Source: Flavobacterium johnsoniae (GTDB lineage: Bacteria > Bacteroidota > Bacteroidia > Flavobacteriales > Flavobacteriaceae). Taken from it: a stretch of 64,000 bases of DNA. The translations under genes were made by a program, and so were the position numbers. This document shows positions 52,162 to 55,040 of this stretch, one piece after another. The stretch covers positions 3,038,001 to 3,102,000 of the forward strand of contig NZ_CP103794.1 in assembly GCF_030388325.1 (NCBI RefSeq). Direction: 5' to 3'. A model generated the notes under the pieces. That model had not been told where the DNA came from. It ran no database searches and saw nothing but the letters and a program-made list of their open reading frames with translations. The stretch's first letter is position 1. Each line of letters begins with the position of its first letter.

Positions 52162-53364
52162 CTAAAGTAACTCATAAAAATTTCTCTTCCCAATTTTAAT
52201 TTTGGTCTCTTTTTTTAATGAAATCAATTCGTATGGATTTAGAATTTTTTCGTGATTAATCTGAACAGCACCGCTTTCAATCAATTTTCTGTTTGCCGAT
52301 TTTGTAATGTCATTTTTTATTAATGCGCACAAATCTATTAATGCCATTTGATTTGATTCATTTTCCAAAGAAGAAATCATAACCGATGTAAATGATTTTG
52401 CCTCTGCATTTTTATTTTGAAATTGATTAATAAAGAATTTCTCTGCATCTTCAGCACTTTTTACATCATGGTATTGCGTTATAATGTTCTTTGCAATTAA
52501 CTTTTTAATGTTCATTGGGTTTTCCAGCTCCAATCTTTTTTTAATTTCTTGTTTTTCTTTAATTGAAAAATCGGTTGTCAAATCTAAAAACTCTAAAATA
52601 AGATTGTCTGGAATTGACATTGTTTTGCCAAACATTTCATGTGGTTCATCTGTTAAGCCGATAATATTATTCAAAGATTTACTCATTTTTTCCTTTCCAT
52701 CCAATCCTTTCAATAGAGGCATACACATCACAATCTGAGGTGATTTTTTAAAGTTTTCCTGCAATTGCCTTCCCATCGTACAATTAAAAAGCTGATCTGT
52801 GCCGCCCATTTCTACATCAGCATTAATTTTAACCGAATCAAAGCCTTGTAAAATCGGGTATACCAATTCGTGCATTGCAATCGGAGAATTCTCTGTAAAT
52901 CGTTTGTTAAAATCATTTCTGTGCATTAATTGTGCAACAGTCACGTTTGCCATAATCTGAATTACTTCAGAAAAAGAAAGTTGATCTAGCCAATCAGAAT
53001 TAAAAACAATTTGAGCTTTATCTATATCAATAATTTTAGATAATTGCGCAATGTAAGTTTCAGCATTATGCTGAACTTCTTCTGCACTTAGAGGTTTTCG
53101 GCTTTTGTTTTTCCCTGTCGGATCTCCGATTCTGGCTGTAAAACTTCCAACCAAAATCACAATTTGATGGCCTAAATCCTGAAATTGTTTTAGTTTTTTC
53201 AATACAACGGCATGTCCTAAATGCAAATCGGGGGCTGTTGGATCAAATCCAAGTTTAATAATTAGTTTTCTGTTTTCTTTTTCTGCCTGATTTAATTTTT
53301 CTTCCAAACCATTTTCAGGAAGAAAGATTGCGGTGTTTTCTTTAAGTTTTTGAATTGTTTCCAT
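52162..53364 (-). CDS. tyrS: Tyrosyl-tRNA synthetase
   Basis: Charges tRNA-Tyr with tyrosine. The 400-residue protein has the class I HIGH-like motif GFDPTAPDLHLGHAVVL, the tyrosine-binding GGTDQLFN block, the KMSKS loop (KEKMSKSLNN) and a C-terminal S4-like RNA-binding domain (about 338-400; LIESGAVQINHEKI). It starts at ATG 53364, METIQKLK; an upstream in-frame ATG at 53394 would be inside the terminator stem. Minus-strand leader: promoter, 30-codon Tyr-rich ORF and terminator just before this gene, so expression is probably attenuated by charged tRNA-Tyr. Confidence 0.96.
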   Translation of the reverse strand: METIQKLKENTAIFLPENGLEEKLNQAEKENRKLIIKLGFDPTAPDLHLGHAVVLKKLKQFQDLGHQIVILVGSFTARIGDPTGKNKSRKPLSAEEVQHNAETYIAQLSKIIDIDKAQIVFNSDWLDQLSFSEVIQIMANVTVAQLMHRNDFNKRFTENSPIAMHELVYPILQGFDSVKINADVEMGGTDQLFNCTMGRQLQENFKKSPQIVMCMPLLKGLDGKEKMSKSLNNIIGLTDEPHEMFGKTMSIPDNLILEFLDLTTDFSIKEKQEIKKRLELENPMNIKKLIAKNIITQYHDVKSAEDAEKFFINQFQNKNAEAKSFTSVMISSLENESNQMALIDLCALIKNDITKSANRKLIESGAVQINHEKILNPYELISLKKETKIKIGKRNFYELL

Positions 53365-53379
53365 TTTTTTGAAAATAAA

Positions 53380-53406
53380 AAAGCCCGGACGCAATGCCCG
53401 GGCTTT
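53380..53406 (-). terminator. Intrinsic terminator in the tyrS leader (attenuator)
   Basis: On the minus strand AAAGCCCGG (53406-53398) pairs with CCGGGCTTT (53388-53380), 9 bp with a 9-base loop, followed by TTT and ATTTTC. It ends 15 bases before the tyrS ATG, with no other coding region between it and tyrS. Its 5' arm can alternatively pair with the leader ORF. Confidence 0.85.
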
Positions 53407-53479
53407 AAGGTTTATATAATTTATCTATTTAATTTACAATCGCGAATACGTTTAATTATATGCATAGCCTTTCCGAGCA
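53395..53479 (-). promoter_or_regulatory. Alternative (antiterminator) pairing in the tyrS leader
   Basis: TGCTCG (53479-53474) can pair with CGGGCA (53400-53395), and GGCT (53469-53466) with AGCC (53404-53401): 10 bp with a 4-base bulge. This uses bases of the terminator's 5' arm, so the two structures exclude each other. The upstream strand lies in codons 22-27 of the leader ORF, right after its Tyr codons. Confidence 0.6.
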
Positions 53480-53544
53480 GATATTATTGCATAATAATAA
53501 GTGCTGAAAAAAGGAAGACGTAATATGCTGTTCAAGAATTTCAT
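53452..53544 (-). CDS. Candidate Tyr-rich leader peptide of tyrS, 30 residues
   Basis: A short ORF that begins MKFLNSILRLPFF and continues STYYYA (Tyr16-18, three TAT codons at 53499-53491), then ends KGYAYN before TAA: 5 of 30 residues are Tyr. The ATG lies 5 bases after the -7 box, so the mRNA would be leaderless or nearly so. It precedes the tyrS terminator, the classical arrangement of a leader peptide that senses charged tRNA. The peptide itself is unlikely to have another function. Confidence 0.75.
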   Translation of the reverse strand: MKFLNSILRLPFFSTYYYAIISARKGYAYN

Positions 53545-53549
53545 GACTG

Positions 53550-53580
53550 CAAAGATAAAATTTTTAATTATGTATTCAAA
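53550..53580 (-). promoter_or_regulatory. Promoter of the tyrS leader transcript
   Basis: On the minus strand TTTG (53580-53577), 19 bases, then TATCTTTG (53557-53550): full -33/-7 consensus. The expected start of transcription is close to position 53544. Confidence 0.85.
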
Positions 53581-53623
53581 AAAACTTAGTGCCTTAGAAC
53601 CTTAGTAACTTAGCCTCTTAAAT

Positions 53624-54730
53624 TTACTCTAAAACCAATTGACCTAAAGCTTCTTTACTGAAACCTTTTAATTCATCAGTTTTTCCAGCTTTAATTTTCG
53701 CCACCCAATTCGGATCAGATAAAAGCGGTCTTCCAACAGCAACCAAATCAAAATCGCCTCTATCGAAACGTCTGTTCAATTCTTCCAAAGAAGTTGGCTG
53801 AGAACTTTCTCCAGCAAATGCGCCAAAGAAATCACCAGAAAGTCCAACAGAACCAACCGTAATTGTTGGTGCTCCTGTAACTTTTTTAGCCCATCCTGCA
53901 AAGTTTAAATCAGAATCTTCAAATTCAGGTTCCCAGAATCTGCGTTGCGAAGCGTGTATAATATCAACTCCCGCATCAACAAGAGGAGTAAGCCAAGCTT
54001 CTAATTCTTGCGGATTTTTAGCCAATTTATAATTGTAATCAGAAGGTTTAAACTGAGAAAAACGCATGATAACAGCGAAATCATTTCCAACTTGTTTTCT
54101 AATTTCTTTTATAACTTCAATTGCAAAACGGTTACGTTCCGGAAGTGTTTTTCCTCCGTAAATATCTTCACGTAAATTTGTCTCAGCTCTAAAGAATTGA
54201 TCGATTAAATAACCGTGTGCACCATGAATTTCGATAGTATCAAAACCTAATCTTTTAGCATCAGATGCAGCTTTACCAAAAGCAAGGATTGTATCTTCAA
54301 TATCTTTCTCAGACATGGCAATTCCGTTTCTAAAATCGGGACGATTCAAACCAGACGGACCTTCAAAAGGAACAGGAGGAACCCATCCAGAATGATGATT
54401 ATCCATAATTCCCATATGCCAGATTTGTGGTCCCATTTTTCCGCCAGCAGCGTGAACTTCATTAATTACTTTTTCCCATCCTTTTAAAGCTAAATCGCCA
54501 TAAAAATGAGGAACATTTGCATCATTTGAAGAAGAAGCTCTGTCAATTACAGTTCCTTCAGATAATATTAAACCAACTTCGCCTTCAGCTCTTTTTTGGT
54601 AGTAAGCTGCTACTTCGTCAGTTGGAACTCCGTTTGGAGAGAATGAGCGCGTCATTGGCGCCATTACGATTCTGTTTTTCAGGTTTAACGTTTTTAAGTT
54701 AAACGGAGAAAAAAGGTTGTTTGTACTCAT
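53624..54730 (-). CDS. Old-yellow-enzyme family alkene reductase (NemA-like)
   Basis: A 368-residue FMN-dependent ene reductase. The N-terminal FSPFNLKTLNLKNRIVMAPMTR, the QIWHMG block, the substrate-binding His pair in IEIHGAHGYLIDQFF and the phosphate loop VAVGRPLLSDP are standard for NemA/xenobiotic reductases. Acts on alpha,beta-unsaturated carbonyls and electrophiles in the cytoplasm with NADPH. It lies 7 bases downstream of an ArsR regulator on the same strand, as in electrophile-responsive operons, which suggests induction by reactive compounds. Confidence 0.92.
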   Translation of the reverse strand: MSTNNLFSPFNLKTLNLKNRIVMAPMTRSFSPNGVPTDEVAAYYQKRAEGEVGLILSEGTVIDRASSSNDANVPHFYGDLALKGWEKVINEVHAAGGKMGPQIWHMGIMDNHHSGWVPPVPFEGPSGLNRPDFRNGIAMSEKDIEDTILAFGKAASDAKRLGFDTIEIHGAHGYLIDQFFRAETNLREDIYGGKTLPERNRFAIEVIKEIRKQVGNDFAVIMRFSQFKPSDYNYKLAKNPQELEAWLTPLVDAGVDIIHASQRRFWEPEFEDSDLNFAGWAKKVTGAPTITVGSVGLSGDFFGAFAGESSQPTSLEELNRRFDRGDFDLVAVGRPLLSDPNWVAKIKAGKTDELKGFSKEALGQLVLE

Positions 54731-54737
54731 AGTAATT

Positions 54738-55040
54738 TTACAAATTAGATTGAATTAATTTACTGAGTGCTTCAAAGGCACCTTCGTTGCGTTTATAATA
54801 AGTCCATTGTCCAACACGCTTGGCTTCGATAAAACCAGCGCGCTGCAAAATAGACAGGTATTCGGATACTGTAGATTGTGTTAAACCAGCTTTTGCTTGA
54901 ATTTGTCCAACGCAAACTCCGTGTTCAAATCCAGCGTGCTGCAATTGATCAGGAAAGTTAATTTCGGGCTCTTTTAGCCATTCCAGCATTTGCAATCTGG
55001 ATTTATTTGATAAGGCTTTAAAAATTTCTATCTTTTCCAT
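54738..55040 (-). CDS. ArsR-family transcriptional regulator
   Basis: A 100-residue winged-helix repressor (LSNKSRLQMLEWL, then AKAGLTQSTVSEYLSILQRAGFIEAKRVGQWTYYKRN). It has only one Cys (Cys43 in HGVCVGQIQ) and lacks the CxC metal site of classical ArsR/SmtB, so a metal sensor is unlikely and a thiol- or ligand-based sensor is more plausible. It forms an operon with the ene reductase and has a palindromic operator in its own promoter, so it is likely autorepressing. Confidence 0.92.
   Translation of the reverse strand: MEKIEIFKALSNKSRLQMLEWLKEPEINFPDQLQHAGFEHGVCVGQIQAKAGLTQSTVSEYLSILQRAGFIEAKRVGQWTYYKRNEGAFEALSKLIQSNL

Follow-up and report, generated by a model that had tools for sequence, protein, structure and literature searches.

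The tyrS2 locus

The window, that is, the whole stretch of 64,000 nucleotides of Flavobacterium johnsoniae DNA that was analysed, carries on its minus strand a gene for an accessory tyrosyl-tRNA synthetase (TyrRS2, gene tyrS2), preceded by a short ORF and a hairpin. The features of the locus are as follows.

53577..53580, minus strand: TTTG, -33 element of a Bacteroidetes-type promoter, read from the sequence
53550..53557, minus strand: TATCTTTG, -7 element, read from the sequence, with a spacer of 19 nt between it and TTTG
53452..53544, minus strand: leader ORF MKFLNSILRLPFFSTYYYAIISARKGYAYN, 30 codons, with Tyr at codons 16, 17, 18, 27 and 29
53513..53526, minus strand: region 1 (ATATTACGTCTTCC), proposed protector strand with region 2 as its partner, from permutations of own versus swapped pairing
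53491..53499, minus strand: control codons 16-18 (TAT TAT TAT), 16 and 17 being invariant Tyr
53467..53479, minus strand: region 2 (TGCTCGG plus AAAGGC), predicted 5′ arm of the antiterminator, TGCTCGG pairing with 53395-53401
53396..53406, minus strand: region 3 (AAAGCCCGGGC), common to the predicted antiterminator and terminator
53380..53390, minus strand: region 4 (GTCCGGGCTTT), 3′ arm of the predicted terminator, followed by a T-tract at 53379-53374
52162..53364, minus strand: tyrS2, accessory tyrosyl-tRNA synthetase TyrRS2, 400 aa, a TIGR00234 match

TTTG is the -33 consensus of Bacteroidetes-type promoters. Upstream of the leader and on the same strand are genes for an old-yellow-enzyme-type oxidoreductase (53624-54730), which precedes TyrRS2 in 13 loci of Flavobacterium counting that of the window, and for an ArsR-type regulator (54738-55040). 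The leader of the window ends at codon 30 (53452-53460) and the other 12 Flavobacterium leaders have 36-37 codons.

A sequence-only reading of this DNA had proposed that tyrS is controlled by a Tyr-rich leader and a terminator. The parts it described were all present on the minus strand, namely a -33/-7 promoter (TTTG at 53580-53577, TATCTTTG at 53557-53550), a 30-codon ORF (53544-53452) with three TAT codons in a row and two more Tyr codons, and a terminator hairpin (53406-53380) with a T-tract, 15 nt ahead of the tyrS ATG at 53364. However, tyrS had been taken for a plain synthetase gene, and this had to be corrected, as the gene is that of the accessory TyrRS2 and the genome has another TyrRS, which is leaderless.

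The terminator of the window has a folding energy of -19.4 kcal/mol (z -4.7), with none of 200 shuffles as good. The piece comprising regions 2 and 3, folded in isolation, does not surpass its shuffles (z 0.05). There are 20 instances of TAYTAYTAY in the window, compared to 6.75 expected from shuffles, and the run of Tyr codons by itself is unremarkable in such A+T-rich DNA. It is conservation that sets the feature above chance, as the leader ORF, the terminator and the antiterminator segment are found in all 81 of the loci compared.

Conservation in relatives

A scan of contigs with the TyrRS protein yielded 149 relatives, and the best 80 of these 149 plus the window make up the 81 loci. Genera among the best 80 include Flavobacterium, Chryseobacterium, Arenibacter, Winogradskyella, Gelidibacter, Aequorivita, Empedobacter, Weeksella, Vaginella, Sphingobacterium, Taibaiella and Rufibacter. 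Conservation of the Tyr codons and the terminator in related genomes had been suggested as a check, and both are kept across genera and families (81/81). Every locus has a leader ORF, of 24-37 codons, though the leaders of L039 and L042 were placed by hand, and a hairpin with a T-rich tail 14-36 nt ahead of the start of the TyrRS match. The distance from hairpin to start is 14-26 nt in 76 of the 81 loci, with an in-frame start codon at or just before the match. L070 has a mismatch inside the terminator stem. Likewise, 81/81 loci contain a GYYCGG segment (leader nt 64, 65 or 67) that is fully complementary to the 5′ arm of the terminator; for L030, L032, L035, L043, L049, L050 and L074, one ranking placed another helix (leader nt 55) above it.

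The end of the stem is T-rich in all 81 loci (window plus best 80 of 149), with at least 5 T per 10 bases around it. This bears on the possibility that the leader controls translation of tyrS2, by coupling or reinitiation, and not its transcription. The leader and the gene are close together, and leader genes in general have been proposed to allow reinitiation (PMC4833913, excerpts), but neither the T-rich stem end nor a whole hairpin between the leader stop and the tyrS start agrees with translational control, which we regard as very unlikely.

TAnnTTTG is named as the -7 consensus in the excerpts of PMC9723704. In 50 of the 81 loci, an exact match to this box is located at most 30 nt upstream of the leader ATG, and for 49 of these the distance is 4-9 nt; the other 31 loci have no exact box in this interval. 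The 170 nt farther upstream contain three matches over all 81 loci. The predicted transcript start is only a few nt ahead of the leader ATG, which would make the transcript nearly leaderless. A transcription start downstream of the terminator had been identified beforehand as one of the observations that would count against attenuation, and the segment between the leader stop and tyrS contains no exact TAnnTTTG box in any of the 81 loci (window plus best 80 of 149).

A search of Rfam with positions 53100-54000 of the window found nothing near gathering thresholds, and the 13 sub-threshold matches all overlap the hairpin. Up to E 1, no T-box riboswitch was among the matches. In Bacillus subtilis, a gene of this kind, tyrZ, is under T-box control according to a title cited in PMC9437257 (excerpts), but the missing match and the presence in this region of an apparently translated ORF (see below) make this explanation extremely improbable.

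TyrRS2 and the housekeeping TyrRS

The TyrRS of the window matches TIGR00234 at 343.7 bits (cut-off 113.8). Two TyrRS in its genome score above the family cut-off, and the gene for the other is at C1:558807-560099. The nearest solved structures are 6n0w and 1jii for the other TyrRS, and 6bqy, 1h3e and 6byq for the TyrRS of the window, which is a distinct second TyrRS beside the housekeeping one. The enzyme is probably active, as the HxGH motif is kept in 81/81 and KMSKS in 80/81 loci (window plus best 80 of 149).

Of 299 Flavobacterium genomes, 12 have TyrRS2, and each of the 12 includes a second, weaker TyrRS match. Searched with the RNA model R1, the same 12 of 299 genomes have the leader, 11 at 117 bits or more and one at 58.5 bits, and the next match scores 46.4. 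Across the order, TyrRS2 is present in 15 of 296 genomes, the F. johnsoniae genome itself and 14 of one other genus. The leader was recovered at 100 bits or more in 14/14 of these other genomes, some of which may share species with the 80 relatives, R1 having been built from such loci.

The housekeeping-type tyrS genes (that of the same genome and eight others in the genus) have neither a hairpin followed by T residues within 80 nt upstream of the start (9/9) nor a short ORF with Tyr-Tyr within 250 nt upstream of it (9/9). Inspection by eye of TyrRS loci in the 'same phylum' set (~44 % identical), confined to the plus-strand loci and excluding L109, revealed no Tyr-rich leader.

The leader peptide

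For 58 distinct leaders, pN/pS over codons 2-17 is 0.18 in frame, compared to 1.07 and 1.62 when the other frames are read. It is 0.06 for codons 2, 4, 5, 12 and 13, all of which lie outside the helix formed by regions 1 and 2 (the 1 : 2 helix). Codon 16 is TAT in 79/79 distinct leaders and codon 17 is TAT or TAC in 79/79, but codon 18 encodes Tyr in only 28/79. The conserved N-terminus reads M-K-x-L-N-x-I-L-R-L-P-F-F-S, and Leu occupies position 4 in 71/72 distinct leaders via six synonymous codons. The leader ORF is, on this comparative evidence, translated and under coding selection, and the low in-frame pN/pS indicates selection on the peptide beyond the Tyr codons. The earlier description of a Tyr-rich leader is therefore accurate with respect to the invariant Tyr codons 16 and 17 but too narrow, as the conserved peptide exceeds the Tyr run.

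These findings raise the possibility that the nascent peptide is itself an arrest or sensing element, the N-terminus in the exit tunnel pausing the ribosome at Tyr 16/17. The switch would then read the peptide, perhaps together with free tyrosine, D-Tyr or an inhibitor, besides codon starvation, and this is compatible with tyrosine-specific attenuation. The pN/pS values for codons 2-17 and especially for codons 2, 4, 5, 12 and 13 favour it, as does Leu4, kept despite the choice of synonymous codons, and codon counting alone does not need a conserved N-terminus. However, a TyrRS2 leader in G947 (L160/L189) lacks the motif, yet Tyr-Tyr and the terminator are kept; Sphingobacterium L039 has MLPFPFYG where others have ILRLPFFS; and RNA pairing can account for the part of the motif at codons 7-11. 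We consider a role of the peptide in arrest possible but would not favour it. The diverged TyrRS2 leader (L160, 1501-1662; L189, 1328-1489) is a natural test of which parts are essential. The conserved leader peptide makes the question of whether attenuator leaders double as arrest peptides directly testable.

Alternative RNA helices

Covariation was assessed in alignment A1, which consists of 33 of the 81 sequences picked for diversity. In the six-pair core of the antiterminator (regions 2 and 3), 198/198 cells are paired, and its pairing percentage and covariation score were equalled in none of 500 shuffles. When the partner was slid by 1-3 columns, pairing was 0-60 %. A C-G pair is replaced by U-A on both sides in 13 of the 33 sequences and U-A by C-G in one. 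The number of pairs changed on both sides is two, a count that 223 of 500 shuffles also attain, and the sequences with U-A, 12 from Chryseobacterium and one from Weeksella, represent few events. In the terminator (regions 3 and 4), 97.8 % of cells are paired and four pairs are changed on both sides (1/500 shuffles as high).

Swapping partners between species weakens the 1 : 2, 2 : 3 and 3 : 4 pairings, with 0/2000 permutations as good for each, in a procedure that ignores relatedness; for control regions that are not partners, 201/2000 and 1729/2000 permutations were as good. A sequence's own partner outperforms the average swapped partner in 46/49 cases for 2 : 3 and 44/46 for 3 : 4. The proposed protector helix 1 : 2 is the weakest among the three (40/58, also with 0/2000 permutations as good) and is weak in L019, L024, L041, L046 and L077. 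Overall, covariation supports antiterminator and terminator helices that would be mutually exclusive.

Ribosome position and proposed mechanism

The effect of a ribosome on the choice of helix was modelled by folding a transcript that ends just after region 3 with approximately 15 nt blocked on each side of the P site as the ribosome footprint. When the A site is placed at codons 16, 17, 18, 19, 20, 22 and 24, the antiterminator probability exceeds 0.5 in 81, 81, 70, 6, 0, 0 and 0 of the 81 loci, respectively. These counts make codons 16-18 the last positions at which a waiting ribosome is predicted to leave region 2 free. In the same model, 2 : 3 forms also without a ribosome in 28/81 loci, with the ribosome at codon 6 in 49/81, at codon 10 in 67/81 and at the stop codon in 25/81, and the off state would hence hinge on timing, which is outside the model. 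For the window, the 2 : 3 probability is 0.01 without a ribosome and 0.87 with the ribosome at the stop codon, the latter because its leader stops at codon 30 and region 2 is then free.

We propose that transcription would begin a few nt upstream of the leader ATG. With Tyr-tRNA plentiful, the ribosome would pass codons 16-18 and cover region 2 while region 3 emerges; regions 1 and 2 would pair later, regions 3 and 4 would form the terminator, and transcription would stop before tyrS2. With Tyr-tRNA scarce, the ribosome would wait at codons 16-18, where its front edge does not quite reach region 2; region 2 would then capture region 3 before region 4 is made, allowing RNA polymerase to enter tyrS2.

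A different explanation is that the leader acts only as a housekeeping terminator, or as a small RNA or peptide in its own right, with tyrS2 expressed by unregulated readthrough. A leader RNA of ~170 nt would indeed arise. However, this leaves the covarying antiterminator, the fixed Tyr codons, the near-fixed spacing (leader nt 64, 65 or 67) and the linkage to TyrRS2 without a reason, and we judge it very unlikely. The probability that the region is a ribosome-mediated, tyrosine-specific transcription attenuator of an accessory TyrRS in Bacteroidota is, in our estimate, about 0.88. Comparison between species has established the coding leader with its invariant Tyr codons, the alternative helices and their spacing, the lack of an inner promoter box and the co-occurrence with TyrRS2; the start of the transcript, its termination and readthrough, and charged tRNA-Tyr as the signal are predicted from these.

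Mobility of the leader and tyrS2

The TyrRS2 tree, which includes 40 of the 81 rows, conflicts with taxonomy. Vaginella is grouped with Sphingobacterium, Arenibacter nanhaiticus is apart from two other Arenibacter, and Chryseobacterium tagetis falls outside the other Chryseobacterium, with starred branches. The proteins flanking the 13 Flavobacterium loci, including the window, form no cluster with those of any other locus (flanks of up to 1500 bases). The constant unit is the leader plus the gene. Together, leader and tyrS2 look like one mobile cassette that would have been transferred horizontally between Bacteroidota species.

A broader and more tentative idea is that of a mobile, self-regulated cassette, in which a backup TyrRS with its own Tyr attenuator spreads among families and the nascent peptide joins in the stall. 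Failure of the host TyrRS, by starvation, an inhibitor or mischarging, would be sensed and a replacement supplied on demand. We think it rather doubtful that all of this applies.

Other candidate leaders

Among 395 genomes of the class, 178 had matches to R1 at E ≤0.01, but only the F. johnsoniae genome scored above 100 bits and the next score was 47.4. Counts below 58 bits were set aside, as most of the matches listed cover the 3′ part of the model, i.e. terminators. The 25 R1 loci listed include five TyrRS2 leaders, and of the other 20, one ahead of a hydroxylase gene, L161-L163, L166 and L175 are leader-like. L122 was rejected as a leader, as it sits within the tail of a coding gene. In the F. 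johnsoniae genome, there was no sign of paralogous leaders, ATATTACGYCTTCC with at most one mismatch giving five matches compared to six for the reversed control.

The leader ahead of the hydroxylase gene was found through a weak R1 match, in genus g196 of Bacteroidia. It consists of MQKTNNTFYYYYPSTQPGRIMYCSF and a terminator, and the gene encodes a biopterin-dependent aromatic amino acid hydroxylase (PF00351, E 1.4e-41). Seven of 36 g196 genomes have a hydroxylase match; a Tyr leader precedes it in three (L210, L211 and L213) and is absent in the other four. These leaders start 167 (L121/L210), 222 (L211) and 282 nt (L213) upstream of the hydroxylase match, have the runs YYYY, YYYYY and YY, respectively, and begin 4 nt past a TAnnTTTG box. 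Phenylalanine hydroxylase makes tyrosine, and a Tyr sensor there fits. This leader appears unrelated to that of tyrS2, which suggests more than one origin of Tyr attenuation. The phenylalanine hydroxylase homologue of the F. johnsoniae genome lacks a Tyr-Tyr leader within 260 nt upstream.

Two Flavobacterium genomes have a 26-codon ORF (MFV-N-TS...VYLR-T) and a terminator before an RtcB RNA ligase gene (L166, ~1501-1642, PF01139; L175, ~1501-1644; minus strand), with ATCTTCG near the end of the ORF complementary to CGAAGAT in the terminator. Here, too, an attenuator that senses translation may be present. In three further loci from three Flavobacterium genomes (L161, L162 and L163, ~1501-1633), short ORFs related to each other (NF-TMWI-SAR) lie ahead of a terminator. 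A gene of ~150 codons and one for an ABC transporter come some 200-400 nt further on, and the arrangement is possibly another attenuator.

Comparison with known systems

Leader-peptide attenuators control trp, his, phe and pheST in enterobacteria. The tyrS2 leader resembles these in having a short leader with codons for the amino acid sensed, an antiterminator opposed to a terminator, and the gene directly after. It differs in that it would sense tyrosine, that its target is an accessory TyrRS, that it begins near the predicted transcript start, that the N-terminal peptide is conserved past the control codons, and that the cassette seems to move between families.

Closer to hand, leader-peptide attenuation has been proposed for amino-acid operons of Flavobacterium psychrophilum, with attenuators or structured 5′ elements at pheA, hisG, alaS and others, and structured 5′ regions are mentioned for aminoacyl-tRNA synthetase genes (PMC9723704, excerpts). 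These leaders share the bacterial group and the proposed mechanism with that of tyrS2, a likeness drawn from the excerpted description. The main text of that paper has no hits for tyrS. Leader-like short ORFs are also mentioned for Bacteroides, and tyrS is not named in the excerpts of that paper (PMC7366714). The claim that no Tyr leader had been described in Bacteroidetes holds insofar as no published report of a Tyr-codon attenuator was found among the literature matches listed, which are partial texts, but leader attenuation for amino acids was already proposed in F. psychrophilum. Flavobacteria are described as being without Shine-Dalgarno sequences (PMC9723704, excerpts), and tyrS2 would provide a complete, testable attenuator in such bacteria, with a tyrosine specificity for which the partial texts listed gave no report.

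In B. subtilis, TyrZ is a second TyrRS that is selective against D-Tyr (PMC9437257, excerpts), and according to the title of Williams-Wagner 2015 cited there, both a MarR regulator and a T box control tyrZ. Compared by these partial descriptions, the two systems share a second TyrRS beside the housekeeping one and, as proposed here for tyrS2, a control that reads tRNA charging, but tyrS2 would have a leader-peptide attenuator where tyrZ has a T box. This suggests a spare aminoacyl-tRNA synthetase that stays silent until charging fails, and a leader-peptide counterpart to the T-box control of Bacillus tyrZ.
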